Below, piece by piece: positions 310 to 62,335 of a DNA stretch of 64,000 nt. Made by a program: the position numbers and the translations under genes. The first letter of the stretch is position 1. The number at the start of each line of letters is the position of its first letter. The notes beneath the pieces were generated by a model that ran no database searches, was not told the DNA's origin, and saw nothing but the letters and a program-made list of their open reading frames with translations. The stretch is from Apostichopus japonicus (Eukaryota > Echinodermata > Holothuroidea > Aspidochirotida > Stichopodidae). The stretch is taken from positions 28,154,166 to 28,218,165 of the forward strand of contig NC_092579.1 of the NCBI RefSeq assembly GCF_037975245.1, given 5' to 3'.

Positions 310-1933
310 GTGTTAAACGTTGGTGCCTTAAATGGGATAGTATGCTATCGACAACTTGGTTACTATTTGGAGCAGCTCTTCTTATGCTCGATTTCTGTAA
401 CTTCTTTCCGAGATTGTATGCACAACCTGAAAAGATATTGCACCTTCTCATTGTGCTGTCACTGTTCATTTCAATTGCGGTTCCTCCTGTCTTGTGTTTG
501 TGCTCCAAGATACGCAGTTACTTCAAGTCTGGAGTTCCTAAACTGAATTGGGCCTCATCTCTAAATATCAGATACCTGATTAAACGAGCACAACTTCTTG
601 ATCTTCCGAACAGAGGTATTATCATCGGTTTCCTATTTTGGTACTTTATCACGCTATTAAAGCAGTTCACCTATCGCATATATCCAAGTTGACATCAATT
701 TCGCATAATCATTTAAACTTATTTTTAACCACGATTATGTTGTAACCTATTACTACGTTGTGAAGGACAAACACCATCAGAGTATCCAATCGTATAGGTT
801 ATCCCACACATTAATTCAACTTATAACGGTCTATAGATCATTGTACTTTAATACAGTACGCATTGCTCGTGGTAAAATATATCCCTTCGTAAACAATGAC
901 TTTCATATTTCTCTTAATTATCGCTTGGTCATCACGAATCACTTGGTATGTTTACGACATAACGGAAAGAAGTGAAACCTATATACGTTGTTACCAATAC
1001 GGAACTTACATAAACTCTATACTGTTAATATGATATACATTTCGACACAGCGTTAATTGAATAACATTAGTCACCCTGTGATTCACAAATATTTTCTATA
1101 TGCTTTATCGAATTAATGCAAATTTGAAAGTTTGTGTTTTTTTCATCTTTTTCTTTTTCTTTTAAGGTTTACCTGGGAAGCTGTTTCTTTTCCAGTGTAT
1201 AAGTTGTCCAGTGGGTGTTGCCATATATCGAACGATCATTTTCGTGTACATTGGTGAATGCGGGATTACACTTTCCAAGGGATTACTGTCATTCGTTGGT
1301 GTAGTGTTTATGTTTTCAGTAGGTGTATTCGTGTACCTGCTCTATTTCATCCGGGTTTCATTCCAGTGCCATTTTAAGCTATTGCTTGCTTACATCAAAG
1401 AGCTTGAATGCGACGCGAAGAGATGCAAAGGTGTCATTATGCAAGTCGCAGCAGATTTCAGTTGTTACAGACGGCTCTGCGAAGTGGTCACAATCCTGAT
1501 GTTTCCTGCAACTGTTTTGGCAATTGTCTCAAATCTTACATGGAATTATATAGTCTTTGGGACATGTGTCATGGAAGATGAAATCAGTAGAAAGATACAA
1601 CAACATATCATGATACTAGCTTGGCTTGAAATTATCACAGCATTTTTCTTATACACTTTTGCATTAGGTGGATTAAAAGTTCGTTACATCTGGGATGACT
1701 TTACTGCAAATCTTCTGCTCATGAAATCCAAAAAAAGTCATGAAAATTCGAAACCATCCTGGAAAGAAATTCTTTTTGAAGTTGAGTATTTGCTGGAAGG
1801 ATCTTATCTTCTGGTAATCACCATTTTTGGTACAGTCAATGGAATTTATATGGGTTTCCATTTTGGCAATCAAAATGTGGCCTTTTTGACTGCAGCCTGT
1901 AATGGCACGTATGTGAATTATACTTGTCATTAA
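310..1933 (+). CDS. Multi-pass membrane protein, gene A (5' partial)
   Basis: Two exons are visible: 310-615 (ends phase 1, donor GGTATT) and 1167-1933 (acceptor TTTAAG, stop TAA). The join reads NRG-LPGK, the same place and phase as RRG-LPGK in genes B and C. About 357 residues are present. The first exon has two hydrophobic stretches (around STTWLLFGAALLML and LLIVLSLFISIAVPP), then a shared NIRY..RAQLL segment matching NVRY..RLQFI in B and C. The second exon has about five hydrophobic stretches and shares the C.....DF.CYR motif and the GGL.V.YIWD motif with B and C. It is a diverged paralogue of B and C. I do not recognise a named family; the size and topology recall gustatory-receptor-like (GRL) 7TM proteins, but that is inference. 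The N-terminal exons are outside the window. Confidence 0.72.
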
Positions 1934-2356
1934 GTTTGATTATTGTGTCAGCTTCATTGGAATTATTTTCAATCGGTGAGATAATTGCACAGATTTACGT
2001 GTCACTTTCTCATCGGATCGAGATTAGTTTACTTTGTTATCTTTTCTTAATTGTATATATGTGTACATTATCTGGCAATTTTTAACAAACGAAACAAAGG
2101 CTCAGCCGTAGTATCATGCATGATTCACACGTCAATATGAAAGCAGCTTTGAACAAAAGTCAATTGCATTATTCTACACTATTTTTTTCCCATTTGTATA
2201 TATTTATTGTATATATTATTTTAAATTTGGCATAAGCAATTCCTCGAATATGTACCTTCTTTACAACCTATACTCTGACAGGATGAAGTAGACCCGGTCT
2301 TGAGCAAGTATACATGTAAGCAAGACGTCGTCAAAGGGTGCATATTCGAACAATAT
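1934..2356. other. Intergenic, no feature seen
   Basis: AT-rich sequence after the gene A stop, probably containing its 3' UTR. No conserved coding or RNA signal was seen. Confidence 0.4.
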
Positions 2357-2644
2357 CTAACATGATTTTATGAAAATATGGGAACAATATCGAAAACATT
2401 TCCTTGAGGTTGCGTCACGTATGATACCATTATATTCGTAATTGGTGTGACATATAACTGGCCACGGTGTCGATTGACCGTTCGGGTCGCAATCAGGCAA
2501 TACGCGAGGAACCATCGTATTAGAAGGACCCATACTGGCACTAGCGCCTCCATAGCATTTAAACATCGGTTGGTTTTCGTACTTAAACCCTATCATGTTT
2601 AACATAGATTCTTGAATTGTACAAAGATCCAGTGCCGATGACAT
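2357..2644 (-). CDS. Small cysteine-rich ORF, possible exon of a secreted protein
   Basis: A 95-residue open frame with eight cysteines and little low complexity, lying where no plus-strand gene explains it. The second half holds LPDCDPNG, a TPWPVIC segment and a RKCF..C segment. The spacing from the PW motif to the C..C pair loosely recalls the N-terminal half of IL-17-type cystine-knot domains, but the match is weak and no full domain is present. Flanking splice sites were not resolved. It could be a chance ORF; low confidence. Confidence 0.22.
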   Translation of the reverse strand: MSSALDLCTIQESMLNMIGFKYENQPMFKCYGGASASMGPSNTMVPRVLPDCDPNGQSTPWPVICHTNYEYNGIIRDATSRKCFRYCSHIFIKSC

Positions 2645-2955
2645 TCGAAATGGTGGCTATATATATAACGATGCTATAATATTTTTCCACTGTACAGCAC
2701 TGTAAGAGTTTGTATTTCTTATCCCAAGTTGCGACATCCGGCGACGCAGAAATGTGAAACGTGCGAAATATCAAAATATGTATTACAATCAATTAATCAT
2801 TGAAGTAATTATTCAATCACTATAGTAAGAAATGTCTTCTTTTGTTTTTAAATAAAATTACAAGACAAAAAATTCCGTATTTTTTTTTTGATTTTCAATA
2901 AGGTGACAGGCATTCTACAAATTAATCACTACAATATGATATGGTATACTAGAAT
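2645..2955. other. Intergenic, no feature seen
   Basis: AT-rich spacer. Short overlapping minus-strand ORFs here look like chance frames. Confidence 0.35.
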
Positions 2956-3059
2956 GATATGTGTGTGTTTTATGGCTAGAATCAAGTGTACAACTAATGG
3001 ACTCGATATAGGCCTACTAACGAAGCGCTGTCAAGATCACATGGCCATAACCCATTGCT

Positions 3060-4060
3060 AGAGGATTGGACTGAGTGCAGGGGGTAGGAAGCTTCCAAAT
3101 AGTGGGGGGGGGGCACAACATCAGAGGGGCACTTTCTCATTCCACAACCACCACTCGTTATGGTATAAACCGATACACACGGGCCATATGACTTAAATAT
3201 ATACGATGTGTTAGTATGCTATCAATACTATTATGGTGCACGTGACTCTATTAACCTATACATCTGTACTTCTGTCCATCCATAATTTAGAACTTTCCCC
3301 AAAAATTCCTCCTGTGTTCATTCCTTCAACAAAAGTCTTTAGCAACCTCGGTTAAATCCTTAGCATGTACAGACTAAAAATAAATAATTAAAATGAAATA
3401 TTAAAATTAACAAAGGCTTAAGATATCCAAAAGACAGTTCTACATCAAATGGGCACATTTTATTTGCCAGTAGGACACATTTGTTATTTGGACATAAAAA
3501 GTGGGGGGGATGGGTACGTGCCCCCAGTCACCCCCGGCTCCTACCCCCCTGAATGGGTGTTCAACAAGATCGATTTTTTGGGGGGATTCTACCCCCATGC
3601 TCTATCTTGAGTTGATATGCGTTGAGTCATTGTATTATCATTACTATCATAGCAAGGTCGAATTAAGAAAAATGATAAGATGCTGACAGTCCTGCCCATA
3701 GTAATAGTTTCATAAGTTTAGCCATAAGAAAAAAGACGCCAGTTAGTGGCGAGTGTTTAACGTAACCCCGTCAGATTAGAACTACATTCCATGTGAAAAA
3801 ATTTGTGTCCACGTTGTAATGCTCTGTTACTGCAGCACAGTTGCTCAGTCTAGAAGCGTAACCAAAACTTTCCTTTTCTGAAACTATATCAGACTATGAG
3901 AACTTTTCTTTCTTGAAAATTCCCTGAAACTTAAAACGTTTTGCTATGCATTACATCAGTGGCGTAGGAAGGTACTTTTGAGTGGGGGGGGGGGGGGCTG
4001 AAGAACGATGGCCGGCCTGGGGGAGGGTTCTAAGGGGAGGGGGTGTCCCCCTCCCCATTG
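3060..4060. repeat. Cluster of dispersed G-rich repeat fragments
   Basis: Three G-rich pieces occur at about 3080-3150, 3500-3600 and 3956-4050. Two begin with a GTAGGAAG motif followed by a long G run. Relatives appear at 41508-41580 (GTAGGAAGCTTCC then G-rich) and, with the related start AGTGGCGTATCC, at 37070. They look like old copies of short interspersed elements; no ORF belongs to them. Confidence 0.5.
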
Positions 4061-4733
4061 GAAATGTTTTGCATTTTCAGGTGGCCTCAGATGCAATTTG
4101 GTGCAATACAGCACACTTCAACACCCACTCCATTTTGTAAATAATTTTGCATTTTTACCTGGCCTTAGATGCAATTTGGTGCTGCAGTATTCCGAAATCA
4201 CTGAAGCGCATTTCTGATCATTAAGACGTCGGATAAGATAAACGTTATGAATGCATCCCCTTCTCTCCAATCCCTTTGTCCTATGTACTTTTTAAGAAAA
4301 GTTACCCAGGAAAGAAAAACCTGGGCACGAAAATCCAAACAAGGAACCGACTGATCCGCTCTCAACCCCCTGCAGTCCCCTTGCATCGAGACTGTGAAAT
4401 GAGCGTCAGGTGTGTATTACGATTCCCTTAGATGGGAACATAATGCTACACATGATCTTAGCCAAAATGCAGAGAAGCGATCTTTTTCCTATCTAGGCTT
4501 TCTTATTTCCTTCTTCCTGCTTACATGCACCCTAAGCAAACTGTTCCTATTTCTATTTCACTTTTATGAGGTATGTTATAGAAGTTATATGATCTTGACT
4601 ATTATGGAGTGACAAATCTAGGTCACATTTAATAACTGGAACATTAAAGTTACTTTCATTACTTGAAGTAAATGTAACATGTCATGGTACGTTATAAATA
4701 GAATTTTGCCTACTTAAATAAAACTATGGATCC
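4061..4733. other. Intergenic, no gene seen
   Basis: Contains a short imperfect internal repeat (GATGCAATTTGGTGC at about 4090 and 4169). Nothing else could be supported. Confidence 0.35.
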
Positions 4734-5001
4734 TACCTTAGGTCGACAGTTACATTGACTTACACACTAAATTTAATCTAACCCTAACCCTTTTTTCTAA
4801 CCCTAACCCTGAACCGACCCTAACCAAAACTTTTAAATGAACGTTTTAGAGGACGGAGAACATTATAAAGCTATTTGCGACAATAAAAAAGTGTCTTAAA
4901 ATGGTAGTGAAAACATTAGGTCGACACTGAAATGTCGACCTTAGGTACACTGTTGACCTAAGGTACACTTTTTTACCATAAACTGTCGACCTAAGGTACA
5001 T
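4734..5001. mobile_element. MITE-like element with TIRs and internal telomere-like repeat
   Basis: The left end TACCTTAGGTCGACAGTT (4734-) is matched in inverted orientation by AACTGTCGACCTAAGGTA (ending about 4999). A second pair of inner copies of the GTCGACC/CCTAAGGTACA motif lies at 4933-4973. The interior at 4780-4826 has several CCCTAA units, a telomere-type repeat. Length about 268 bp with no ORF, so a non-autonomous DNA element or foldback is the best reading. Confidence 0.68.
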
Positions 5002-5007
5002 ATTATG

Positions 5008-5065
5008 CTTATATATATATGCTTATATATATATATATATATATGCTTATATATATATATATACA
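5008..5065. repeat. TA-rich microsatellite
   Basis: Tracts of (TA)n interrupted by GCTTATA units directly abut the element ending at 5001. Confidence 0.85.
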
Positions 5066-6106
5066 CTAGGTTACATGTGAAAATACTGCAATTCCTCTTT
5101 CTGGCATGTATTTTTGTGCTTCAAACTCGCAACTAGAAAATAAAGAACTATATTAAAATAATGCAGATTTGCTCTCTCTCCACCTTGCCCTTGCCCTCGC
5201 ACTACCCTCCAGCCAATCTCCGAGGCATTGTTGAAGTTTTCATTCGGTAACAGCTATACACCTATCTGGCTAGCTGACAATGAAAAGCGACTATTTCGAT
5301 TCTTTTCCTGCTCTATAAACTCATTTAGTGACATTTAGCGACCAAGCTTGCACTCTTGCACCCCTCCCCACCCACCCACCCACAGTATCCACCAAAACTG
5401 CCGTAAGAGAGGGTTACAAGGCAAGGTGACTTCGCTGCATCTTTGAAGGAGTTCACTAAGTTTCTAATTTGGCACTCTATTTCCTTATCACGAGACAGCA
5501 TAATGGTTACCAAGGATGGGTCAGTATGTGACAATTATTACTTTCACAACCCATTCAGTCTGTTGCAAACGCATGCCCCATTTAAACAGGTATTAATACT
5601 AATCCGCAAACCATGGCTATGAAAACAATATTTAGTACCACTTGAAATCTACTGTGTCCGCAAATAGTCTGCTATAAAAAATTAACAGTATATAACAAAA
5701 CAACGTTATAGGCTTGTTTTCGTTATAGTTAATGATAATGCTATGTAGCCTACCACTGTTAGACATAATGTGACAACAGAGAATGCAATAATGAAAGTAT
5801 GCCAAAGTTCGGTGCATCCTGTCTCTGGCATGCCCTTCACATAATTACATGGTGACGATGTAATTTGCGTGTAACAAATGGGTATCGTTATCAGTTTCAA
5901 ATTCGAGTTAATCGGTAATAAAATATTGACATTTTTGTTTCTACTCTTGGACTAATAACAGTTGTCAGAAGTATGCTGCATGAGATGAGGGCTCAACCGT
6001 ATATACTTCAGTAGTTCGCAACTTATATACAGTAGCGGTACGAGACTGGCACATTCGGATTGGTATTTGTTAAATTACCGTAAGAAAAAGGCTGTGTTGT
6101 AATATC

Positions 6107-8935
6107 ATGGCGTTCTATTTGAAGGAAAGACGTAAAGAACAACAAGAAAGTGTGTCTTTATTGTTCGCAAATGACGATATCTTGTCCCTTCGAGGAACAG
6201 ACGACATAGCAGACGAAGAACTTGGAGGAGGAGGAGGAGGAGGAGGAGGAGGAGGAGGAGGAGGAGGAGGAGGAGGAGGAAGAGGAAGAGGAAGAGGAAG
6301 AGGAGGAGAAGATGAAGATGAAGATGAAGAATTAGACAAGCCTAGATTGCCAATTCCGACCACCGTCTGGTTGATTATGAAGATAACTTGTGTATTTTTT
6401 CAAAACAAACTAGCCGTTCCAAGAGAGTGTTTCAGATGTCACATACTCGAACGAAACAAATCAGTGAGTCAATTTGTACTTTTATCTATATAAAATATTG
6501 CATATTTTTATTTATTGAAAGCCTAATGCTTGCACTACGCGGTGAATTACTTCATATTTGCTGTAAGAAAATAATGTGGCTAAATGGTCGTAGTCTCTCT
6601 GAATATGGAATATTTTTGTCGAATATTAATTATCCTTGATCTTACAATATTTAACCTTCCGTTGCTGTTTTTCTGCAGAACAAAGATGTCGTGTCCGGCA
6701 CTTACCTTTTCGATAAGGGGGTATTTTTTGGGGTTAAGGCGGGGGTTTGCTTTACAAATCAAACTTATACTTAATAAACTAAACAATGAGAATTGCTCCA
6801 AACGAAAAGATAAAATACATTTTGTACATGTTCCTGAATCTGATAGTCTTCATCAATTGTTTAATACAATTTCTTAGATTAGTGGAAGTTCGACATGTTC
6901 TGAATCTGAGAGTCTTCATCAACTGTTTAATACAATTTCTTAGATTAGTGGAAGTTCGACTAATGAATGGAATGGTTGCCTAAATGGAGACAGATATGAT
7001 TACTCGACTAGTGAAAGGACAAACCATTATGACGTAATGCAGTCTGAAAACTGTACAGCGTGTGACAGCTACTGGTGGGATTATAATGGGAGAGTATGCC
7101 GGTATGCAGATACAGATATAGGTATGTATGATCATATAGTATGAACTATGCGAACTGTTCCATGCAATTATTGGTGTTTCTCCAAAGTCACATGAACTTT
7201 ATTGTGCTGTTATTTCACGTAATTATGACGTCATTCTGATACTATGATCTACTTGACAAATTGAAAAGAAACAACATACATGTCAAACTACACACTGCAC
7301 GGATAGGGTCTCAAATAAGCTACTGTAAATCTTCCTGATCATTTGGGTCTCTAAACTTAACTAAATGATACCGATAAAAAGTTATCTTTATAACAGGTGA
7401 TCCACAAGGGACCTCGCGAACCGTTTCTATCTCACTATCAGATTTCGCTATATATATATTCTAATCTCCATCATTATAATCCACCGAAACTCCTTTATAA
7501 ACCTTGAGCGGACAGGGTATATTATTAATCATTTTTCTTATACAGTCACACATTGTCTTCGTTTTCCTTAAAGGTGTTGGAACCTGGAATCACCGTGGCA
7601 GCTGGGTTGTATCTGTGCTTCTACTCTTTAGCATCTCTGTCAATAACGCCTACGAAGTCATCACGTTTGCTCATTTTAATCGGGAGAATACGTACTTTCT
7701 CGTCAACTTGTTATCTTTCTTCATCTTCATGACGATATTATCCCTCTATCCGATCATGAGTTTGTATTCGAAGATTACGACAGTAGTAACGCAAGGGAGG
7801 ATTTCTCGAGCTCAAATATCATGGACAAGAACTCTCAATGTCCGTTACATTTTATGCCGTCTACAATTCATAGAATTTCGGAGAGGTGAGTGATTAATTA
7901 ATTAATTAATTAATTAATTAATTAATTAAACGAAATTAATTAATTAATTAAACGAAATGGGATCAAACTGTTCCAGTTTGTGTATGACCACATTTCTGAC
8001 GTTTGTATAAAACAGAAACCGTAATCACATATAGGCCTTCAATACCCATAGGCTAAGGGAAGCGTGGGCTGGGGGGGGGGGGCTTCTACAGCCCCCAACC
8101 AAATATTTTGTGAAAATTCAGGCAATAGGCTGCGAGTTTTCGAATAACCGATGCATGCCATATATGATTTGCAAATTAACCAAAAACAAATTGGTTATAT
8201 TTTTCGGCCAAGTCGTTACAGCCCCCCCCCCCCCCCAATCAAATTGGGCCCTATGCTACTACCGACGTTAATAGTCTACGGTTCCTAGAGATAATATCGT
8301 CTAGGTGGGAGAAAAACGGACCCAATTGTGGAAGGATTAAGTAGCCCATAAAATATACAAGACATTATCTGATCTATACATAGACATTTGTTTTCGTGGA
8401 AAATGTGATATGTGACGTATTTGACAAAATGAAACCCTAGTAAGAGAAAATATTACTGTTTTTGACAACTAAGAACGTATAAAGTATCTTTCAATATGTT
8501 TTTGTAAGTTACTTTGTTTTTCTGTTCAGGTATTTGTAGGGCAAGACTTATTCAGCACTGCTTAATCAGGCGTAATCGGCAGTTTTTAATTGCTTGCAGT
8601 TGGTTGTGATTGCAATATTATTTCTCTCGCTCGCGTACTAGACTTAAAAACCCTATTTGTTCATTTAGCTAGAACGTTTCCTGTTTAAAAGGTGGGGGTG
8701 GGACCATTTTTGGCATAGTTTTGTGCATGGAACAATTTAGAAAGTAATGTGATTTTGTCTTATAGTGAGACGTGGAAGGTTACAGAAAAGGCAACCAGTT
8801 TTTGTAATTGCTAATGTCCTAAGCTTACAGTTGTAAACGATAAATATGATGATGATGATGATAATAATAATAATAATGATGATAATAATAATAATAATAA
8901 TAATGATGATGATAATAATAATAATACTAATAATA

Positions 8936-8972
<37 letters not shown>

Positions 8973-9741
8973 TAATAATAATGATAATAAAAATAATCAT
9001 ATTTTTGAAATTAATAATGTTTTATTTTCTCCTTTTCTGTCAGGATTACCTGGAAAGAAAATGCTGTTGATTTGCTTTGCTTGGCCAATGGAATTGTTTC
9101 TTCATCGATTTCTAATATATTCTCCTATCCACATATGTCCAAAACGTGAGGGTTTCCACTTTTCCAAATTCCAGACATTGATAGTAACCCTTCTTTCTAT
9201 GATCGTTTGGACTAATTTTCAATACCTCTTGTTTTTGTGTCGCATCTCATTCATGCGTCAATTTCAACTTGTGCAAACCTTCGTTAAGAATCATCAGGGG
9301 GATTTGGACGGATGCCGCCAAATGATATGGACCGTTGTGTGCGACTTTAATTGCTATAGAAAGTTTGTCTACGTGTATATGATGTTAATGTTACCGTTTG
9401 TTACATGGGGGATAACCACGTCCGTATGTATGCAGTACAAGCAAGGTGAAGAGGACATTCCTTGCAACAACATCTTATGGATGATTTGGTCGGAACATTT
9501 CATGTTTCTGAGTTTAAGTCTCTCCGCAGTTGGTGGTCTTGACGTGTCGTACATGTGGGACCATTTTCGCCACAATATCCTTACCACTACGCACACAAAT
9601 GACACCGCACACTTTTGGCGTAAAATTAATCACCATCTGGATCACATGTGCTTGGAATCATGCAGCATTACATGGACAATGGCATTGTCATTCATCAGTT
9701 CCTACATGGCAGTCTATAGCACTGGTCTGCAAAATACATAG
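6107..9741 (+). CDS. Multi-pass membrane protein, gene B (complete, 4 exons)
   Basis: Exons 6107-6463, 6944-7121, 7574-7885 and 9044-9741 join in frame to 514 residues. Exon 1 starts MAFYLKERRKEQQ, then carries a poly-Gly run, RG repeats and an acidic DE repeat, all from a GGA/GAA microsatellite, then a hydrophobic TTVWLIMKITCVFF stretch. Exon 2 encodes a Cys-rich, hydrophilic loop with an NCT glycosylation sequon and ends phase 1. Exon 3 has two membrane stretches. Exon 4 has four or five, with the motif DFNCYRK and GGLDVSYMWD, and ends at TAG. Exon 2 uses the second of two tandem TTCTTAG acceptors; the first leads to a stop. The family is not recognised. A 7TM gustatory-receptor-like identity is possible, but no TYhhhhhQF signature is seen at the C-terminus. 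Confidence 0.82.
6217..6333 (+). repeat. Coding GGA/GAA/GAT microsatellite in gene B exon 1
   Basis: A run of GGA codons passes into GGA-AGA alternation and then GAT-GAA alternation. It is read as poly-Gly, then RG repeats, then DE repeats. The frame is kept. The paralogue at 14047-14169 has fewer Gly codons but more RG and DE units, so each block has changed length since the duplication. Confidence 0.95.
6828..6960 (+). repeat. 66-67 bp tandem duplication of a splice-acceptor region (gene B)
   Basis: Two units, 6828-6894 and 6895-6960, each contain TACAATTTCTTAG followed by ATTAGTGGAAGTTCGAC. The second unit supplies the usable acceptor (exon starts 6944); splicing to the first gives a frame ending at the TAG of the second unit's acceptor. 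The same pair is present in gene C at about 14666-14798. Confidence 0.9.
7891..7957. repeat. (ATTA)n microsatellite next to gene B exon 3 donor
   Basis: A run of ATTA units starts five bases after the GTGAGT donor and is split by an ACGAA insert. The gene C copy (15729-15773) is shorter. Confidence 0.9.
8846..8998. repeat. (ATA/ATG)n trinucleotide microsatellite in gene B intron 3
   Basis: About 150 bp of ATA, ATG and AAT units. It generates poly-Ile and poly-Met frames that are not genes. The gene C copy at 16663-16827 has a purer and longer core. Confidence 0.95.
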
Positions 9742-10689
9742 TGTGACTGGTGTATCAGTAGTGTTATTCTATCGTAGTAGTATCAAAGGTGGCTAATGAT
9801 ACTGCTAATTAGTGGCATGTGCCTAAAACAATACTTTATTAAAATCTATCTAAGGATGCATCTGTATAGCTTCAACTGTTGTTTACTTTTAAAGTAAAAC
9901 TATAATGAAACTAAAGACAAAGAATCCGTGGGAACGTTGTAGTAAATGTTATTTCATGCGGTTCAATGTGTTATTTCTATGGGAATGGAATCTGACGTGA
10001 GATAACAAAGACTTTGGTTACCATGGGCGCCCAGTTTCCGTAAATTTCAACTCTTTATTTATCCAGCAACTGCAAATACTTTCAACTTTCATTACGTTTT
10101 CATGTTGGATCGAGGGTTTGGAAATAGCAAAATAATCAATGGGGGCTATCCTGAAACACTACATGAAATTTGTAACTATGTTGTTCTATTACTCACAGCA
10201 CTCTCAATTGGTGCAAACGCAAGCGTTGATTACTTCGGAAGAACGGTTTTAGATTATAGATATTTTATGGCATGCAAAAATATGTTGATTGGTTCAGTAG
10301 TTTGATCTTACTCGCCTGTTTTTGTTACGATAATCCACATATCGCCAACTAATATAGCTTACTGATATGCACCAGTTGTCAACAAAAAATTACAATTTCA
10401 ACGTTTTAACTTTTCGTTTCGTGTTTGTAAATGCTTGTAAATGTAATAAATGTTAAACATGTTCTCAGTGAAACTAATCTACCTTATAATTCATCTCTTG
10501 TATACCAGCAAGTTATATTTTGTGAAACATTACATTATGTTTTGTTCTCTATAGAAGCGACTTAATTTAAAGCACAAAATACAAATTCAAGACAGAGGAA
10601 TTAAAGTTCTCTGGATTGTATCCCAGGCCCTGTTGGGGACTGTAATAAGCTTGATACAAGATATAATTAACAGACGTGATGTTATTGTT
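9742..10689. other. Downstream region of gene B, 3' UTR and spacer
   Basis: A shared ORF starting MLDRGFGN (10102) is open for 67 residues here and 83 in the copy at 17933, with different C-termini because of an indel. That pattern suggests noncoding DNA. A possible polyadenylation signal AATAAA lies at about 10445. Confidence 0.4.
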
Positions 10690-12050
10690 TTTTCAAGCTT
10701 TGACTTATTCTGAGTCATCTCACCAGTGTCTAACAATTACAAAACAGGTGTCTAAATATTAACATATCAATATAGAGAGACAGAGCCTTAATTAATAATC
10801 TCTTTGCAATCTTAATCCCCTCTCTCAGACATGCCATTTGACTCTGGGTAGTATATCGGTTAGAGGTAGTATGATAAAGTTGATACAATATGGAAAAAGT
10901 ATCAAAATGCAAACTTCTGAAGTGAGGTCCATTATCAGTAATAACAATACCATGATATGCAAATGTGTAATTTACAAATAATAATGCATTATTACTGTTG
11001 CACTCTTAGGCGTAAGGTAAATAAGAAATCTGAAAATCACCTGAATAATAATCGATTAAATATCAGATAACCCATTTCTATTCCACCCAAAGAGATTAGC
11101 TCCCAGTGTGTTTTCCCCAGGGGTCTATATGGGATACCACGTGACTGCATAGCCTCTCTTTGATTCTGCTTCCTGTGTGTGCGTTACAGATAGAACACTT
11201 AGAAACTTAGATGTTCAATCTCAGCATTCAATTGAGATCAAAGCTTTACGTCCCTATCGCTTCTTTTGAATTTGTCTATGCCAAGGTGAGCACCGTGAAA
11301 CTGACAGAGGAATACTTGGTCTCATCTTAGCTGGAATAAATTAATTTATCACCTCTAAATCAAAAAGCATCATTTAAACAATAATCTTATGTCTGTAATT
11401 CCAATCAGATTTTGTACGACTTACAGGTAGATTTGCTCTTGCATTTAGGTCATCCTTGGTTACCTATATCAACTCTTCCATGGCTTCATCTTGACTAGAA
11501 AACAGGAAGCATTCACTGAACGTTCATTTCTATTTGTTAATTGCGCCATGAACATTCTTTGAGTGGTGTGTTCGCATTATAAGTCGTTATTAAGTCGTTA
11601 TTATTAATGTTACTTTGGAAATTGGTAACATCCATCGACTAGCTACTTCAAAATATTTTTCACCGAAGGTATCAGCCACTATGTGTAGACTTGCTCTAGA
11701 CAATATGTCTGCAATATATAGGTCTGTTCAATGACGGTACTTTACATGCTGTGGGTACTTTTTTAACTATCGTTAACATTTGGGAGTAGCCTCGCCACAT
11801 GTATGTGGCGTTGATCAACCTTTGACCATAGGAATACTCATGAAAACGTTCACACCTGAAAAACTGGTAAGCATTTCTGTTTTTACTTTGAGGGTACTTT
11901 TGCTGACTTTTAATCGAATAATTTGGAAGCATGGGAAACTGATGCACCATCTGAGAATCACAGCTCTGACCCGTAGGTGGCAAGAGTCAACAGATCTAGG
12001 GTATACTAACTCGGCATCCTGAAGAACCCGGTCATAATTTCTGAGGTCTC
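10690..12050 (-). mobile_element. Decayed Ty3/Gypsy RNase H-integrase fossil, copy 1
   Basis: Read on the minus strand, broken frames hold recognisable Ty3/Gypsy pieces in the right order: an RNase H piece with FRCERFHEYSYG (about 11,830-11,900), a zinc-finger/integrase-core start with CSICNAHTQE (about 11,140-11,210) and an integrase catalytic piece with an ITDNGPHF-like segment followed by a degenerate YPQSNG..ER..KI (about 10,800-10,950). Frames shift and stops interrupt them, so the element is dead. No LTRs were identified. The same fossil sits at 18,540-19,690, so insertion and most decay came before the duplication. Confidence 0.72.
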
Positions 12051-12538
12051 GTATAACTATCTGCCTCTATATGATCTCTTCTCGGAATAGTACATGACTA
12101 CATATTTATTGTATACGTACTAGATAGTTTCAGGACGCTTCAATATATCTTCATCTCATCTTAAATTTTACAATATCGATTATTAAAACAAACTTGCAAT
12201 CTGGTATATGAAAAATGCGACAAGGAGATATTTTTATTATATTATATATTATATTATTTTTATTTTTATTAACTTTAATTAAATCCAATGAAAGAGTCTC
12301 TTGTGCGCTCTTGACTGTGTGGATACTTGGGTATTATTACTCTCTGTTATAATTATTATTTAGCAATATGATTTGCCTGTGTGATAAATAAGTCCAGGAT
12401 AAGATATGAATAATATACATAGATAGCTTCGGAAAACGTCAATTACAATGTTCATAATTTCATTTTTTATTATCGATTGATGCAGCGAATTCTGTTCATG
12501 CATTGTACATAAACTTATTAATTTCAGAAAAAACATTA

Positions 12539-12826
12539 TTAATACATACAGCAGGTTTGTCCTCCTTGCACATTACATAAGCCACCGGTTACATTGTACG
12601 AACATCCAAGTTGAGTTGATTTTGGTAAAATTATATTAAATAATTTCACTCGAGTAGTCAAGTCGTATTTGGACTTAAGAGAGAGAAATTTGTGCATTCT
12701 TGTATTGCACTTGCGATTAAAACTGATATATGGGAACTGTGTCTTGGCGAAAAAATGTCGAACATTGAATGGATAATTACATTCATTCAGTGTCGAACAT
12801 GTCTTTGATGAAATATCATGGTCCAT
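12539..12826 (-). CDS. Cysteine-rich small ORF, possible terminal exon (copy 1, open)
   Basis: A 95-residue frame. After a CATCAAAG acceptor-like site it reads TCSTLNECNYPF, an FPYISFNRKCN segment, then TRVKLFNIIL, QLGCSYN and ends QTCCMY. The layout (C.YP near the start, FP.I....C in the middle, a LGC near the end) is loosely IL-17/cystine-knot like, which is inference only. The copy in the second duplication (20,135-20,420) has AAG changed to TAG and one Cys changed to Tyr. Either this copy is a surviving exon or both are relics. Confidence 0.28.
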   Translation of the reverse strand: MDHDISSKTCSTLNECNYPFNVRHFFAKTQFPYISFNRKCNTRMHKFLSLKSKYDLTTRVKLFNIILPKSTQLGCSYNVTGGLCNVQGGQTCCMY

Positions 12827-12839
12827 TGAAATTCAGTGC

Positions 12840-12920
12840 CAGTTGCGGATCCATGGGTTAACACCCTCCCTCCCGACCCCCTCCCCCTTTTACAACACCA
12901 TGACACCAAAAAAACAAAAA
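12840..12920. repeat. C-rich dispersed repeat fragment
   Basis: TTGCGGATCC followed by C-rich sequence and an A-rich tract. It resembles the other GGATCC-plus-homopolymer pieces in the window (21,100-21,310, 37,070) and is duplicated at 20,435-20,525. Confidence 0.5.
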
Positions 12921-13258
12921 AATTAAAGGTAGTTACAATTGTGTTCAGAAGTGTCGATGGGTCAGGTCTGATCCCGCACACAAATATGTCACAGGGTCTC
13001 ATTTTTCCTATTCTTCAAATATGTAGATCATGATCTGTAATAATGTATGATTATATGGTCGATATTGATTACATAACGATTGGTACTGTGTGATTACACA
13101 ACCGATAATGATTAAACAACGATATACGTATAATTGTATTATAACAAAGTCGATAGTGATGGCATAATTCTTGTAATAATGTTTTCCATGTTATTTAAAA
13201 CAGTTAGAAACTCGTGTTGTGATTATACAACACAAAGTTTTAATAATTTAACGTTACT

Positions 13259-13375
13259 TTAAAAGAGTATTGCAAGTGCCTCTGCTGCATACTCCTTATC
13301 AGGAGGTGGAAAGCGCCGAGGGCTATCGAGGTATTTCTTGACCCCTGGAATGGCAGAAAATGTTGTCACAAATAA
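13259..13375 (-). pseudogene. Orphan GST terminal exon (duplicated fragment)
   Basis: A 117 bp copy of the last exon of the GST gene at 20,862-26,320, with its CACAG acceptor and an in-frame stop (TAA here, TAG in the working copy). It reads FVTTFSAIPGVKKYLDSP and ends AILF, differing at its first residue (L for S). No other GST exon lies near it, because the duplication breakpoint fell in the GST intron just upstream of this exon. It has stayed open, which fits a recent duplication better than function. Confidence 0.88.
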
Positions 13376-13932
13376 CTGTGGAATTAATATTTAAAAAAAA
13401 AACGTGAAACAGAAAACGTAAGTACCGAAAATTGACAAGCTTTTATTTAAATCATCTCAAATTTCTTGCAACTCTTTTAAAAATTAGAAATTAATTAATT
13501 TTAGAAATTAACAGTATATAACAAAACAACGTTATATGCTTGTTTTCGTTATAGTTAATGATAATGCTATGTAGCCTATCACTGTTAGACATAATGTGAC
13601 AACAGAGAATGCAATAATGAAAGTATGCCAAAGTTCGGTGCATCCTGTCTCTGGCATGCCCTTCACATAATTACATGGTGACGATGTAATTTGCGTGTAA
13701 CAAATGGGTATCGTTATCAGTTTCAAATTCGAGTTAATCGGTAATAAAATATTGACATTTTTGTTTCTACTCTTGGACTAATAACAGTTGTTAGAAGTAG
13801 GCTGCATGAGATGAGGATTCAACCGTATATACTTCAGTAGTTCGCAAATTATATACAGTAGCGGTACGAGACTGGCATATTCGGATTGGTATTTGTTAAA
13901 TTACCGTAAGAACAAGGCTGTGTTGTAATATC

Positions 13933-16728
13933 ATGGCGTTCTATTTGAAGGAAAGACGTAAAGAACAACAAGAAAGTGCGTCTTTATTGTTCGCAAATGA
14001 CGATATCTTGTCCCTTCGAGGAACAGACGACATAGCAGACGAAGAACTTGGAGGAGGAGGAGGAGGAGGAGGAGGAGGAGGAGGAGGAAGAGGAAGAGGA
14101 AGAGGAAGAGGAAGAGGAAGAGGAGGAGAAGATGAAGATGAAGATGAAGATGAAGATGAAGATGAAGAATTAGACAAGCCTAGATTGCCAATTCCGACCA
14201 CCGTCTGGTTGATTATGAAGATAACTTGTGTATTTTTTCAAAACAAACTAGCCGTTCCAAGAGAGTGTTTCAGATGTCACATACTCGAACGAAACAAATC
14301 AGTGAGTCAATTTGTACTTTTATCTATATAAAATATTGCATATTTTTATTTATTGAAAGCCTAATGCTTGCACTACGCGGTGAATTACTTCATATTTGCT
14401 GTAAGAAAATAATGTGGCTAAATGGTCGTAGTCTCTCTGAATATGGAATATTTTTGTCGAATATTAATTATCCTTGATCTTACAATATTTAACCTTCCGT
14501 TGCTGTTTTTCTGCAGAACAAAGATGTCGTGTCCGGCACTTACCTTTTCGATAAGGGGGTATTTTTTGGGGTTAAGGCGGGGGTTTGCTTTACAAATCAA
14601 ACTTATACTTAATAAACTAAACAATGAGAATTGCTCCAAACGAAAAGATAAAATACATTTTGTACATGTTCCTGAATCTGATAGTCTTCATCAATTGTTT
14701 AATACAATTTCTTAGATTAGTGGAAGTTCGACATGTTCTGAATCTGAGAGTCTTCATCAACTGTTTAATACAATTTCTTAGATTAGTGGAAGTTCGACTA
14801 ATGAATGGAATGGTTGCCTAAATGGAGACAGATATGATTACTCGACTAGTGAAAGGACAAACCATTATGACGTAATGCAGTCTGAAAACTGTACAGCGTG
14901 TGACAGCTACTGGTGGGATTATAATGGGAGAGTATGCCGGTATGCAGATACAGATATAGGTATGTATGATCATATAGTATGAACTATGCGAACTGTTCCA
15001 TGCAATTATTGGTGTTTCTCCAAAGTCACATGAACTTTATTGTGCTGTTATTTCACGTAATTATGACGTCATTCTGATACTATGATCTACTTGACAAATT
15101 GAAAAGAAACAACATACATGTCAAACTACACACTGCACGGATAGGGTCTCAAATAAGCTACTGTAAATCTTCCTGATCATTTGGGTCTCTAAACTTAACT
15201 AAATGATACCGATAAAAAGTTATCTTTATAACAGGTGATCCACAAGGGACCTCGCGAACCGTTTCTATCTCACTATCAGATTTCGCTATATATATATTCT
15301 AATCTCCATCATTATAATCCACCGAAACTCCTTTATAAACCTTGAGCGGACAGGGTATATTATTAATCATTTTTCTTATACAGTCACACATTGTCTTCGT
15401 TTTCCTTAAAGGTGTTGGAACCTGGAATCACCGTGGCAGCTGGGTTGTATCTGTGCTTCTACTCTTTAGCATCTCTGTCAATAACGCCTACGAAGTCATC
15501 ACGTTTGCTCATTTTAATCGGGAGAATACGTACTTTCTCGTCAACTTGTTATCTTTCTTCATCTTCATGACGATATTATCCCTCTATCCGATCATGAGTT
15601 TGTATTCGAAGATTACGACAGTAGTAACGCAAGGGAGGATTTCTCGAGCTCAAATATCATGGACAAGAACTCTCAATGTCCGTTACATTTTATGCCGTCT
15701 ACAATTCATAGAATTTCGGAGAGGTGAGTGATTAATTAATTAATTAAACGAAATTAATTAATTAATTAAACGAAATGGGATCAAACTGTTCCAGTTTGTG
15801 TATGACCACATTTCTGACGTTTGTATAACACAGAAACCGTAATCACATATAGGCCTTCAATACCCATAGGCTAAGGGAAGCGTGGGCTGGGGGGGGGGGG
15901 CTTCTACAGCCCCCAACCAAATATTTTGTGAAAATTCAGGCAATAGGCTGCGAGTTTTCGAATAACCGATGCATGCCATATATGATTTGCAAATTAACCA
16001 AAAACAAATTGGTTATATTTTTCGGCCAAGTCGTTACAGCCCCCCCCCCCCCCCCCAATCAAATTGGGCCCTATGCTACTACCGACGTTAATAGTCTACG
16101 GTTCCTAGAGATAATATCGTCTGGGTGGGAGAAAAACGGGCCCAATTGTGGAAAGATTAAGTAGCCCATAAAATATACAAGACATTATCTGATCTATACA
16201 TAGACATTTGTTTTCGTGGAAAATGTGATATGTGACGTATTTGACAAAATGAAACCCTAGTAAGAGAAAATATTACTGTTTTTGACAACTAAGAACGTAT
16301 AAAGTATCTTTCAATATGTTTTTGTAAGTTACTTTGTTTTTCTGTTCAGGTATTTGTAGGGCAAGACTTATTCAGCACTGCTTAATCAGGCGTAATCGGC
16401 AGTTTTTAATTGCTTGCAGTTGGTTGTGATTATATTATTTCTCTCGCTCGCGTACTAGACTTAAAAACCCTATTTGTTCATTTAGCTAGAACGTTTCCTG
16501 TTTAAAAGGTGGGGGTGGGACCATTTTTGGCATAGTTTTGTGCATGGAACAATTTAGAAAGTAATGTGATTTTGTCTTATAGTGAGACGTGGAAGGTTAC
16601 AGAAAAGGCAACCAGTTTTTGTAATTGCTAATGTCCTAAGCTTACAGTTGTAAACGATAAATATGATGATGATGATGATAATAATAATAATAATGATGAT
16701 AATAATAATAATAATAATAATGATGATG

Positions 16729-16801
<73 letters not shown>

Positions 16802-17570
16802 TAATAATAATGATAATAAAAATAATCATATTTTTGAAATTAATAATGTTTTATTTTCTCCTTTTCTGTCAGGATTACCTGGAAAGAAAATGCTGTTGAT
16901 TTGCTTTGCTTGGCCAATGGAATTGTTTCTTCATCGATTTCTAATATATTCTCCTATCCACATATGTCCAAAACGTGAGGGTTTCCACTTTTCCAAATTC
17001 CAGACATTGATAGTAACCCTTCTTTCTATGATCGTTTGGACTAATTTTCAATACCTCTTGTTCTTGTGTCGCATCTCATTCATGCGTCAATTTCAACTTG
17101 TGCAAACCTTCGTTAAGAATCATCAGGGGGATTTGGACGGATGCCGCCAAATGATATGGACCGTTGTGTGCGACTTTAATTGCTATAGAAAGTTTGTCTA
17201 CGTGTATATGATGTTAATGTTACCGTTTGTTACATGGGGGATAACCACGTCCGTATGTATGCAGTACAAGCAAGGTGAAGAGGACATTCCTTGCAACAAC
17301 ATCTTATGGATGATTTGGTCGGAACATTTCATGTTTCTGAGTTTAAGTCTCTCCGCAGTTGGTGGTCTTGACGTGTCGTACATGTGGGACCATTTTCGCC
17401 ACAATATCCTTACCACTACGCACACAAATGACACCGCACACTTTTGGCGTAAAATTAATCACCATCTGGATCACATGTGCTTGGAATCATGCAGCATTAC
17501 ATGGACAATGGCATTGTCATTCATCAGTTCCTACATGGCAGTCTATAGCACTGGTCTGCAAAATACATAG
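13933..17570 (+). CDS. Multi-pass membrane protein, gene C (complete, 4 exons)
   Basis: Exons 13933-14301, 14782-14959, 15412-15723 and 16873-17570 join in frame to 518 residues. The protein is identical to gene B outside the exon 1 Gly/RG/DE tract, apart from V to A in ESVSLL versus ESASLL. Exon 4 shows one silent change by eye (TTT to TTC). Topology and features are as for gene B: a basic start, a low-complexity RG and acidic tract, a Cys-rich loop with an NCT sequon, and six to eight membrane stretches. Introns are also nearly identical to gene B. The upstream 250 bp is duplicated too, so both genes probably have the same promoter. Confidence 0.82.
14047..14169 (+). repeat. Coding GGA/GAA/GAT microsatellite in gene C exon 1
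   Basis: Equivalent of 6217-6333, with a shorter Gly run and longer RG and DE blocks. Total length differs by four codons and the frame is kept. Confidence 0.95.
16663..16827. repeat. (ATA/ATG)n trinucleotide microsatellite in gene C intron 3
   Basis: Copy of the 8846-8998 tract, expanded in its ATA core. Confidence 0.95.
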
Positions 17571-18539
17571 TGTGACTGGTGTATCAGTAGTGTTATTCTA
17601 TCGTAGTAGTATCAAAGGTGGCTAATGATACTGCTAATTAGTGGCATGTGCCTAAAACAATACTATATTAAAATCTATAGAAGGATGCATCTGTATAGCT
17701 TCAACTGTTGTTTACTTTTAAAGTAAAACTATATAATGAAACTAAAGACAAAGAATCCATGGGAACGTTGTAGTAAATGTTATTTCATGCGGTTCAATGT
17801 GTTATTTCTATGGGAATGGAATCTGACGTGAGATAACAAAGACTTTGGTTACCATGGGCGCCCAGTTTCCGTAAATTTCAACTCTTTATTTATCCAGCAA
17901 CTGCAAATACTTTCAACTTTCATTACGTTTTCATGTTGGATCGAGGGTTTGGAAATAACAAAATAATCAATGGGGGCTATCCTGAAACACTACATGAAAT
18001 TTGTAACTATGTTGTTCTATTACTCACAGCACTCTCAATTGGTGCAAACGCAAGCGTTGATTACTTCGGAAGAACGGTTTTAGATTATAGATATTTTATA
18101 ACCATGCAAAAATATGTTGATTGGTTCAGTAGTTTGATCTTACTCGCCTGTTTTTGTTACGAAAATCCACATATCGCCAACTAATATAGCTTACTGATAT
18201 GCACCAGTTGTCAACAAAAATCACACTTTCAACGTTTTAACTTTTCTTTTCGTGTTTGTAAATGCTTGTAAATGTAATAAATGTTAAACATGTTCTCAGT
18301 GAAACTAATCTACCTTATAATTCATCTCTTGTATACCAGCAAGTTATATTTTGTGAAACATTACATTATGTTTTGTTCTCTATAGAAGCGACTTAATTTA
18401 AAGCACAAAATACAAATTCAAGACAGAGGAATTAAAGTTCTCTGAAATGTATCCCAGGCCCTGTTGGGGACTGTAATAAGCTTGATACAAGATATAATTA
18501 ACAGACGTGATGTTATTGTTTTTTCAAGCTTTGACTTAT

Positions 18540-19690
18540 TCTGAGTCATCTCACCAGTGTCTAACAATTACAAAACAGGTGTCTAAATATTAACATATCA
18601 ATATAGAGAGACAGAGCCTTAATTAATAATCTCTTTGCAATCTTGACATGCCATTAGACTCTGGGTTGTATATAGGTTAGAGGTAGTATGATAAAGTTGA
18701 TACAATATGGAAAAAGTATCAAAATGCATACTTCTAAAGTGAGCTCCATTATCAGTAATTACAATACCATGAAATGCAAATTTGTAATTAACAATGCATA
18801 TACTGTTTCACTCTTAGGTGTTAGGTAAATGAGAAATCTGAAAATCACCTGAATAATAATAATCGATTAAATATTAGATACGTGACCATTTCTACTCCAC
18901 TCAAAGAGATTAGCTCCCAGTGTTTTTTCCCCAGAGGTCTATATGGGATACCACGTGACTGCATATAGCCTCTCTTTGATTCTGCTTCCTGTGTGCGTTA
19001 CAGATAGAACACTTAGAAACTTAAATTTTCAATCTCAGCATTCAATTGAAGCAAAAGCTTTACATCCCTAGCGCTTCTGTTGCAGTTTTCTATCCCAAGG
19101 TGAGCACTGTGAATCTGACAGAGGAATACTTGGTCTCATCTTAGCTGGAATAAATTAATTATCACCTCTAAATCAGAAACAATCATTTAAACATTAATCT
19201 GATGTATGTAATTCCAGTCAGATTTTGCGCGACTTACAGGTAGATTTGCTCTCGCATTTAGGCATTCTTGCATTTAGGTCATCCTTGTCTGGTTAGCTAT
19301 ATCAACTCTTCGTATGTGTAGACTTGCTCTAGACAATACGTCTGCACTATATAGGTCTGTTCCATGACGGTACTTTACATCATGTGGGTACTTTTTTAAC
19401 TATCGTTAACATTTGGGAGTAGCCTCGCCACATATATGTGGCGTTGGTCAATCTTTGACCACACGAATTCTCATGAAAACGTTCACACCTGAAAACTGGT
19501 AGGCATTTCTGCTTTTACTTTGAGGGTACTTTTGCTGACTTTTAATAGAATGATTTGGAAGCGTGAGAAACTGATGCACCATCTGAGAATCACAGCTCTG
19601 ACCCGTAGGTGGCAAGAGTCAACAGATCTAGGGTATACTAACTCGGCATCCTGAAGAACCCGATCATAATTTCTGAGGTCTCGTATATGG
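18540..19690 (-). mobile_element. Decayed Ty3/Gypsy RNase H-integrase fossil, copy 2
   Basis: Same pieces as 10,690-12,050, with more changes: a deletion near 18,645, a small insertion in the AATAATAAT tract near 18,855, and a ~180 bp loss near 19,310 where copy 1 has its ACAGGAAGCATTCACTG region. It shares the same decayed frames, so the element was already dead when duplicated. Confidence 0.72.
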
Positions 19691-20134
19691 GAAATGCCTA
19701 TCTGCCTCTATATGATCTCTTCTCGGAACAGTACATGACTACATATTTATTATATACGTACTAGATACGTACTAGTTCCAGAACGCTTCAATACTCTTCA
19801 TCTCATCTGTAATTTTACAATATCGATTATTAAAACAAACTTGCAATCTAGTATATGCTAAAAGATATTTTAAACTTTAATTAAATCCAATGAAAGAGTC
19901 TCTTGTGCACCCTTGACTGAGTGGATACGTGCGTATTATTACTCTTTGTTATAATTATTATTAAGCAATATGATTTGCCTGTGTGATAAATAAGTCCAGG
20001 ATAAGATATGAATAATAATCGTAGATAGCTTCGGGAAGCGGCAATACACTGTTCATAATTTCATTTTTTATAATCGATTGATGCAGCGAATTCTGTTCAT
20101 GCACTGTACATTAACTTATTAATTTCAGAAATAC

Positions 20135-20420
20135 ATTATTAATACATACAGGTTTGCCTTCCTTGCACATTAGATAAGCCATCGGTTACATTGTACGAAC
20201 ATCCAAGTTGAGTTGATTTTGGTAAAATTATATTAGTTAATTTCACTCGAGTAGTCAAGTCGTATTGGGACTAAAGAGAGAGAAATTTGTGCATTCTTGT
20301 TTTGCACTTGCGATTAAAACTGATATATGGGAACTGTGTCTTGGCGACAAAATGTCGAACATTGAATGGATAATTACATTCATTCAGTGTCGAATATGTC
20401 TTTGATGAAATATTATGGTC
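20135..20420 (-). pseudogene. Cysteine-rich small ORF, copy 2 (stopped)
   Basis: Second copy of 12,539-12,826. An in-frame TAG replaces AAG in the HKFLSLK segment, a Cys is changed to Tyr near the start, and bases are missing near the C-terminus. If this was ever an exon, the copy is dead. Confidence 0.4.
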
Positions 20421-20861
20421 CATTGAAATTCAGTGCCAATTGCGGATCCATGGGTTAACACCCTCCCTCCCGACCCCCTCCCCATTTTACAACACCATGA
20501 CACCAAAAAAAAAAAAAAAAAAAATTAAAGGTAGTTACAATTGTGTTCAGAAGTGTCGATGGGTCAGGTCTGATCCCGCAGACAAATATGTCACAGGGTC
20601 TCATTTTTCCTATTCTTCAAATATGTGCATCATGATATGTAATAATGTGTGATTATAATGGTCGATATTGATTACATAACGATTTGTACTGTGTGATTAC
20701 AAAACCGATAATGATTAAACAACAATATACGTATAATTGTATTATAACAAAGTCGATAGTGATGGCATAATTCTTGTAATTATGTTTTCCATGTTATTTA
20801 AAACAGTTAGAAACTCGTGTCGTGATTATGCAACACAAAGTTATACTCATTTAACGTTACT

Positions 20862-23624
20862 CTAAAAGAGAATTGCAAGTGCCTCTGCTGCATACTCCTT
20901 ATCAGGAGGTGGAAATCGCCGAGGGCTATCGAGGTATTTCTTGACCCCTGGAATGGCAGAAAATGTTGTCACAAATGACTGTGGAATTAATATTAAAAAA
21001 AAAAAACGTGAAACAGAAAACGTAAGTACCGAAAATTGACAAGCTTTTACTTATATAATCTCAAATTTCTTACAACTCTTTTTTCCTCGGTTAGATTAGA
21101 CGTGGATCCGGGTTTGGAAGTAGGGGGGGGGGTGATGGGTTGTAAACCTGCTTTTAACCTCTTACAAACATTCCAAAAAATTGTGACCAACAAAGTTTCT
21201 TTTATATATTTTTTTCTTGAGCAGAATGTTATGTCCTTCATGACAAGTCGGCTTCGACGACCCCGGGGCCACACACCTCCTTTATAAAATCCCGGATCCG
21301 CCACTACAACCTCGTAAAGTTTGTTGTTATTACTAAGAGGCTGACAAATTTGAGAAATTGTTTATACCATACACACTCACACAATATATCAGAGCCTTGA
21401 CATCATGGCAAGGAAGCTTCTATATAGATCCTACATAACCTAGACATTATTCTTGCATTTTATAGAGAGTATTTGGAAGGTCAAAATATGCGTATAAGTA
21501 TATTGCGTGTATAACACATATTATGGTGAAAGCGTATATAGTAAACGTACTTTACAACGTGGGAATTCATCCAAGAGATTACCGTAATCTGCCCCCTCAT
21601 CTATGTACGATAGAATATTGAACAAAGCACAGTCAGCTATTGTAACAGAGCTACCGACAAGAAAACCAGTCCCATTCTCCGTAAGAACCTGAAATGTCAT
21701 AAAGCAATCAAAACCGACACTGAAAACGACGTCGTCATTGGACGGTTGGTTCTTTAAACACATGTTTTTACTTATATGTATATCGCGAGGCGGGTACAGA
21801 CCACAACAGATCTTCACACGAGACAACATGACATACAATCGCATATGCGTCGGCGACTGCCTTACTATTCTCATTTGTAAGTACAAACATTCACTAGTAA
21901 TAAATCCCTGTTATTAAAAGCTTGTTTGTTTGGCAGCTTGGCGACCGAAATGTCACCTTCTTCATCATCATGGCGAACCCTCCAGTGGCGAATATTTGCG
22001 TTTTGGGGACTGGGTGTTATTTAATTAAATGCAGGCGCAAATTGCAGCGACCCGACGCGACTGCGACGAAAAATCCGTCGGGTCACAGTCGGGTCGGTGC
22101 TCACGACCCGACCACGGTCCCCAGTCGTGATGTTTAATATTCGTCGGGGCCGTCGCGCCGCATTTGAGTCGGGTAGTTGCAGTCTGCGGTTGTCCACGAC
22201 CCGACTGCGATCCGATTAATAGATAGCCAATGATGAAACGTCTTGATATCAGGTGACGGCTGCAGTTGAAAGTCATGTGGACTGATGAGCACGAGATTAA
22301 ACTGTTGGGTCGCGTCGGGTCGGGCTAGTGTGCGGCTAAACTTATACGACTGACTCCAACGCATTCCCCTTGAGTAGTTGGAGGATTCGTGTCGGGTATG
22401 TGCGATTCGCAGGGTGATTATAGTTGCAAAATCACTTTTATAGCTCTTCATTAAACTATTATGACAAATTTATCAGTTTCTATACGTGGGTGAGATAAAA
22501 AGATAATTTTACAGTTCGATAATTCCTTTTACTCCGTAAAATTTAGAAAGTATATATCTCTGACATTTTCTTCTTTTTAGAAACGGAGATTTGAACATAA
22601 CGACGATAAGATAACTTAACCTTTTCATAGGGAGGGAGGTATCGTTCTCTCGCCTTCTTAATTGCCTCTTTACGGCAGTCATCCCATTTTTCTTCAGGAT
22701 GAAAAATAATCCAAGTCGGTTGACACAACATTTGGAATGAACGTGCCCCAGTATAAAGCATGTATACACTGGTACAGGAAGAAGAAGAAAGAAAATATAA
22801 AAGAACAATGAAATATCCTTTGTTTTTATTTTTCTCTTGTTGCTTTACGACTATTGTCAAGGGCTGGGCAGCGCGTACTCCCCACCCCCCCCCCCCCAAA
22901 GCACCCAAGAACATCTTTCCATAAATGAGAAGTACCTCATTTTATAGAACACGTAAATATAGAAGTGACCTTTTGTTGCAAAATAAAAGAAATAGTATTC
23001 AAAAGTGCCATGTTGTTGTAAAACCTTCAAACCGACTGAAATTTGTGGTACATAACTTGCGAGAGATGGTCCATTAATATATCGGGACGTTGAGTTTGCG
23101 GTTTGCTTCTTCATATCAAAGTTACATGCATCCCCCATAATATGTCTTACCCCCTCCCCAGATTGAACCCTCCCTTCCCCTCTTGATATTGTGAAACCGC
23201 ATGGCTTAAATTACTTCCTTACTTTCCCATTTCTTTGTCGTTGCTCCCTATCATGTTGTACTTCTGGCCTAGGTAATGTTCTTGAGCTTGTGACTCTATG
23301 AGACACAGGCCATCAATTTCAACCAAGGGGAGCTGCATGAACATAAGCTTTCCAGCTGATGGAATTAATAAATAAAAATAATAATAAAATAAAGATATGT
23401 TAGTTAGCATTGCTTTGCTGCAGGTTATACTTAAATAAAGTGCCAAACGAGCGTATACACAATTTATTCAATGTACGGTATCCGTTTTGCTGTATATACA
23501 TATATACGTATACACACACACACATATATATATATATATACATAATATATATATATATTATGTATATATATATATTATATATTATGTATATATATATATA
23601 TATTATGTATATATATATATATAC

Positions 23625-59640: not shown

Positions 59641-60260
59641 GCCTTAATTTTGGTGGTTCACAAGGTGAACTTGAATTTGTTACTTTTGCTGAGTTTGTTG
59701 GTATGAGTTTCTAATTCATTAATGTAGTCTGTTTTGTAAATTAAAGAGACATTGTGCCTTAGTTTGGTGGAATGAGTAGTTAATAAGTGTGGTCTGTTTG
59801 TGCTCAATTGAAGAGCCATGATAAGTTAGTTTGGTGGCATCAGTTGGTATTCAGTGATGTCTGTTTTGTGCTAAATTAATCAAACCTGGTGCCTTAGTTT
59901 GTTGGAATCATTTTGTAATTAGTAATTTGGTTGTCTTAAATTGATGATTGTTGCCTTAGTTTGTTGGAAAGAGTTGCTAATTAGTGTGGTCTGGGTTGTG
60001 GTAAATTAATAAGACATTGTGCCTTAGTTTAATGGAATGAGTTGGTATTTAGTGAGGTCTTTTCTGAGAGATGTTCAAACCAGTGGCCAATAATTTCTGA
60101 CCATATAATTCCATTTCTTTCACAAATTGCCCCTCTAGAAGAGTACACATCTTTTGTCTGTGGCTGACAGTTTGGTTGTTCACAAGGTTTATCTTTTTTA
60201 CTATTGCTGTTACTTTGAAGAAAACTGACTAATTTGTTTGTATTCCTCTCCTTTCATCAG

Positions 60261-62083: not shown

Positions 62084-62335
<252 letters not shown>

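Follow-up and report, generated by a model that had tools for sequence, protein, structure and literature searches.

A small tandem family of predicted multi-pass membrane proteins as candidate divergent GRL-type receptor channels

What kind of protein is specified by three consecutive plus-strand genes, here called A, B and C, in the 64,000-nucleotide stretch of DNA that we analysed (the window)? A preliminary description had taken them for paralogues with a shared exon phase and shared motifs, could place them in no named family, and had thought that a lineage-specific chemoreceptor, for example of the GRL type, would fit. The genes do constitute a small tandem family encoding predicted multi-pass membrane proteins, and we give roughly even odds (a probability of about 0.5) to their being divergent, lineage-restricted receptor channels of the 7TMIC/GRL type, an identification that neither sequence nor fold proves.

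Gene B (6107-9741) comprises four predicted exons, which join into an open frame of 514 amino acids with GT/AG at every border. Exon 1 (6107..6463), delimited by its open frame, donor site and hydropathy, with no independent support from A, supplies the ATG, a Gly/Arg/acidic repeat tract and an N-terminal hydrophobic stretch (residues 81-99); exon 2 (6944..7121), recognised by frame and splice borders, holds four cysteines and one NCT sequon (residue 155). Exon 3 (7574..7885; splice borders, tblastn and hydropathy) encodes TM1-TM2 and a basic loop, and exon 4 (9044..9741; tblastn, alignment, hydropathy, AlphaFold and codon positions) TM3-TM7 and the stop. The exons of gene C (13933-17570), viz., 13933..14301, 14782..14959, 15412..15723 and 16873..17570, were delineated by open frame and joins, and their predicted joins yield an open frame of 518 amino acids. 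By the predicted exon coordinates, the first join of both genes is in phase 0 and the other two are in phase 1, and the Cys-rich, sequon-bearing exon noticed earlier in B and C is their exon 2. Of gene A (310-1933) only the last two exons, encoding 356 amino acids, are visible; it is incomplete because only 309 bases lie upstream of its first visible exon, and its start falls beyond the window edge. The first of these (310..615) is the counterpart of exon 3 of B, as indicated by GT/AG borders, a phase 1 join, hydropathy and tblastn of A against B exon 3 (E 0.001-0.003), and the second (1167..1933) encodes TM3-TM7, a C-terminal tail and the stop (1931-1933). The low-complexity exon 1 and the Cys-bearing exon 2 of B and C have no counterpart visible in the partial A.

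The kinship of A and B is, judged from sequence comparison, far above chance. Their last exons are 31% identical on alignment (tblastn E 6e-21), and a tblastn search of the window with B also recovers the exon 3 counterpart of A (E 0.003). Identities between the last exons at codon positions 1, 2 and 3 number 102, 130 and 69, respectively, of 225 aligned codons, which in this alignment is the pattern of protein-coding descent. Further, the TM1-TM2 exon is joined to the last exon in phase 1, between RG and LPGK and with GT/AG borders, in both A (310-615 to 1167-1933) and B (7574-7885 to 9044-9741), and the motifs D-F-x-C-Y-R and G-G-L-x-V-x-Y-x-W-D are present in all three genes. The shared join and motifs of the preliminary description thus stand; the count of three does not, for B and C are near-identical and the family hence amounts to two independent sequences. 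Searching with exon 4 and exon 3 profiles against open stretches of at least 25 residues in all six frames, we found only A, B and C within the window (next best rows at E 0.026 and 0.038), and none of 77 and 105 short-pattern stretches from viral and prokaryote contigs encodes a relative at tblastn E <= 1e-3. An open reading frame at 10006-10305 (counterpart at 17837-18184) was considered as a last TM exon and rejected, since TM7 and a stop codon already close both A and B, Pfam lists nothing for it at E <= 0.1, and its final residues differ between the two copies.

Hydropathy analysis, at a cut-off of 1.1 that we chose, delineates seven segments in B, TM1-TM7, at residues 190-208, 224-242, 289-307, 328-346, 393-411, 435-453 and 488-506 (TM7 clears the cut-off narrowly, at 1.16), besides the N-terminal stretch at 81-99, and seven segments in the partial A; the earlier count of six to eight hydrophobic stretches agrees with these eight and seven. 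The loops alternate in length, being long after TM2, TM4 and TM6 (46, 46 and 34 residues in B; 48, 41 and 48 in A) and short after TM1, TM3 and TM5 (15, 20 and 23 in B; 15, 14 and 25 in A). Lysine and arginine account for 43 of 263 residues in the long loops of A and B and for 10 of 142 in their short loops plus C-terminal tails, everything upstream of TM1 being excluded from the counts (one-sided Fisher p 0.005 for A and B pooled, 0.018 for A, 0.10 for B alone). The long basic loops together with the seven segments suggest a predicted topology with the N-terminus inside and the C-terminus outside, an N-terminal orientation that insect OR/GR-type channels share and that GPCRs reverse. Two sequons, NGT and NYT, in the tail of A past TM7 fit an outside C-terminus. 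Under the same topology the product of exon 2 in B, four cysteines and NCT sequon included, would lie in the cytoplasm, where the sequon would be idle, and a second sequon of B (468) falls in a predicted inside loop; if the 81-99 stretch spans the membrane, the picture changes.

How far, then, do these proteins conform to the GRL plan? According to the available part of PMC7746228, GRLs are recognised by their length, seven TM segments, an inside N-terminus and longer intracellular loops, with a TM7 motif that is diagnostic though not definitive. B (514 residues) and the partial A (356) correspond by hydropathy to the class of about 350-500 amino acids with seven TM segments; the loop lengths also agree, and the inside N-terminus does so as a prediction (p 0.10 for B alone). 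Two features are absent. First, of the four fixed positions of the TM7 motif (T/S)Yhhhhh(Q/K/E)(F/L/M), B (SY-MAVYS-TG) has two, retaining SY and not QF, and A (IY-MGFHF-GN) has one, the Y alone; the C-terminal signature is thus missing as first described, its Q/K/E and F/L/M positions being absent from TM7 of both. Second, no phase 0 intron precedes a TM7 exon, as TM3-TM7 lie in a single open predicted exon in A, B and C. Tandem arrays are common in chemoreceptor families. Hence, the suggestion of a GRL-type chemoreceptor survives in part: tandem layout, length, seven segments and charge pattern are as it anticipated, whereas no OR, GR or GRL match was obtained by sequence or fold, and the pre-TM7 intron is wanting.

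Within the 7TMIC/GRL reading, and by analogy with such channels, the subunits might assemble into a tetramer through cytoplasmic extensions of TM4-TM6 and TM7a, with TM7b lining a cation pore that would open upon the binding of a small ligand in the bundle's outer half, and the copies in the array could then be tuning variants in chemosensation or other cell-surface sensing. We further propose, tentatively, that they represent a previously unrecognised, sequence-orphan branch of 7TM ion channels in a non-insect animal, which is tandem-expanded and homogenised by gene conversion, bears a Gly/acidic, Cys-containing N-terminal extension, and has neither the 3' intron nor the TM7 motif in its canonical form.

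The main rival is that these are an orphan, lineage-restricted multi-pass family unrelated to the 7TMICs, for instance transporter-like or accessory proteins, which has arrived at seven segments by chance; we accord this a substantial likelihood, though one short of even. Its strength lies in the want of any convincing match in Pfam, PDB sequences, the Orco comparison or Foldseek, as well as in the TM7 motif and 3' intron discussed above. When A and B were scanned against Pfam-A as six separate exon pieces, no family reached the cut-off, and the rows listed were sub-threshold and of unrelated families; neither 7tm_7 or 7tm_6, the profiles proposed earlier as a check, nor any other receptor family including GPCRs was listed for these pieces at E <= 10, a limit at which the HMMER filters discard most matches above 0.1 and a very diverged GPCR member could escape an exon-wise scan. 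PDB sequences, a library that includes Orco, ORs and Gr64a, gave no match at E <= 10 for exon 4 of B, the last exon of A or a two-row profile of them. Alignment to the Orco TM5-TM7 fragment by hhalign returned a probability of 0.2, and Smith-Waterman comparison with it scored 34 for B (reached by 112 of 500 shuffles; reversed B 34) and 29 for A (reached by 424 of 500; reversed A 30). The initial failure to match a named family is therefore borne out for the libraries tried, namely PDB sequences and, with each exon scanned separately, Pfam-A.

What speaks against an unrelated family is that the alternation in loop length and charge and the helix lengths of the last exon conform, in A as in B, to the plan of the 7TMICs. 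AlphaFold models built from two-row alignments have five helices each: 3-29, 41-82, 87-132, 140-180 and 187-230 in B exon 4 (pLDDT 62.8, pTM 0.57), and 3-29, 37-79, 83-132, 138-188 and 198-245 in the last exon of A (pLDDT 53.7, pTM 0.39). Their lengths in these low-confidence models (27, 42, 46, 41 and 44 residues in B; 27, 43, 50, 51 and 48 in A), one ordinary helix followed by four long ones, agree with the TM3, long TM4-TM6 and TM7a+b of 7TMICs, though models as weak as these settle nothing; Orco-like proteins have such long TM4-TM6 and TM7a+b in the available part of PMC9998090. AlphaFold runs on two rows may themselves produce such long, unbroken helices as an artefact. A Foldseek comparison had been suggested for the 514-residue product; run on the exon 4 models of B and A (pLDDT 62.8 and 53.7, and so weak), it retrieved no PDB entry at E <= 0.001, and the VIA-align rows for the B model were generic bundles.

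The nearest parallels to the 7TMIC/GRL reading come from three groups of proteins. With the GRLs of animals such as echinoderms and hemichordates (e.g., SpurGRL1), A and B share the 350-500 amino acid class, seven TM segments, a predicted topology that puts the N-terminus and the longer loops inside, and the TM7 tyrosine, and the 81-99 stretch of B resembles the re-entrant N-terminal segment that, as described in PMC7746228, is mispredicted as a TM segment in several GRLs, SpurGRL1 included. They differ in lacking both the QF of that motif and an intron ahead of TM7, in the long acidic/glycine N-terminus and Cys-bearing exon 2 of B and C, and in having no OR/GR similarity in the searched libraries, the echinoderm GRLs being compared by description and not by sequence. 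The structure-defined Grls of Drosophila, most of which are reported in part of PMC9998090 to be without the TM7 motif and mostly narrow in taxonomic range, are likewise sequence orphans of 7TM topology; in contrast to A and B, whose low-confidence models matched nothing, they were recognised through AlphaFold models resembling Orco (PMC9998090). Finally, insect Orco/OR and Gr64a, with their solved structures, are akin to A and B in predicted topology and in the order of long cytoplasmic helices, and unlike them in that A and B have neither a sequence match nor a Foldseek match at E <= 0.001. The name GRL101, as used in PMC6267866, belongs to a GPCR and is irrelevant to GRLs.

The near-identity of B and C stems from a 7.8-kb tandem duplication, whose left unit (5679..13478) holds B and right unit (13505..21082) holds C by self-megablast and alignment, with just 26 bases (13479-13504) between them. 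The two proteins differ by one residue and in the length of the exon 1 repeat. The units are separated by 199 substitutions over 7,518 aligned positions, distributed unevenly: 1,585 consecutive bases (6308-7892) recur unchanged in the right unit, exons and introns alike, and 400-base bins beyond the gene core diverge by 1-18% (3.5-18% downstream of 10879). This juxtaposition of an identical core and diverged bins suggests that the core of the gene recently underwent gene conversion. Excluding 11459-13478, substitutions are sparser in coding (9/1,545) than in non-coding positions (83/4,185; p 7e-5), which favours constraint; however, exons 2-4 compared with introns (1/1,188 versus 6/2,067; p 0.43) do not, so that the contrast derives from the flanks, and exons 1-2 carry no selection signal because the identity of B and C extends through the introns. 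Two local repeats occur in these units. A GGA/GGAAGA repeat in coding exon 1 (6224-6330 and 14050-14168) is not equally long in B and C, whose Gly/Arg/Asp-Glu tracts differ accordingly. A 66-bp tandem repeat (6826-6960 and 14664-14798) doubles the exon 2 splice acceptor, with copies at 6870 and 6936; use of the first would run into an in-frame stop within the second acceptor.

A further possibility, compatible with the other readings, is that one of B and C is an assembly duplicate, viz., an unmerged haplotype, in which case the family would consist of A and one gene. The spacing of 26 bases and the 1,585-base identity are in its favour, but the divergence of 3.5-18% per bin downstream of 10879 is high for alleles, though possible, and we think it rather unlikely. 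Very improbable is the idea that the genes are diverged GPCRs, i.e., 7TM proteins with an outside N-terminus: seven hydrophobic segments in a tandem array, an exon 2 whose sequon and cysteines would become extracellular, and the tandem OR-like GPCR genes described in a sea cucumber (PMC7042368) would accord with it, yet, by charge bias, the loops that follow TM2, TM4 and TM6 should lie inside, which predicts an inside N-terminus, the Pfam scan of the six exon pieces listed no GPCR family, and B has three introns, unlike the sea cucumber OR-like genes, mostly single-exon in the available part of that source (PMC7042368).

According to PMC7746228, GRLs have been described from a limited number of deuterostomes. 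Should the 7TMIC/GRL reading be true, a motif-less tandem family of this type would imply that sequence screens undercount such channels in animals other than insects, just as the Grls of Drosophila were undercounted; were the proteins unrelated to 7TMICs, their interest, as an orphan membrane family, would be modest.

The window (36.7% GC) looks like animal DNA, given its intron-bearing genes and minus-strand neighbours, the latter including by Pfam a glutathione S-transferase C-terminal exon, a zf-C4H2 gene and two exons of a methylpurine-DNA glycosylase, as well as a FOP-dimer/LisH exon marginally below the Pfam cut-off. The glycosylase gene (37922-39920, minus strand) has at least two exons, with Pfam E-values of 5e-33 and 1.5e-24. 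From 59646 to 64000, nested tandem arrays whose repeat unit is 69 bp, together with larger duplicated blocks, reach the end of the window.
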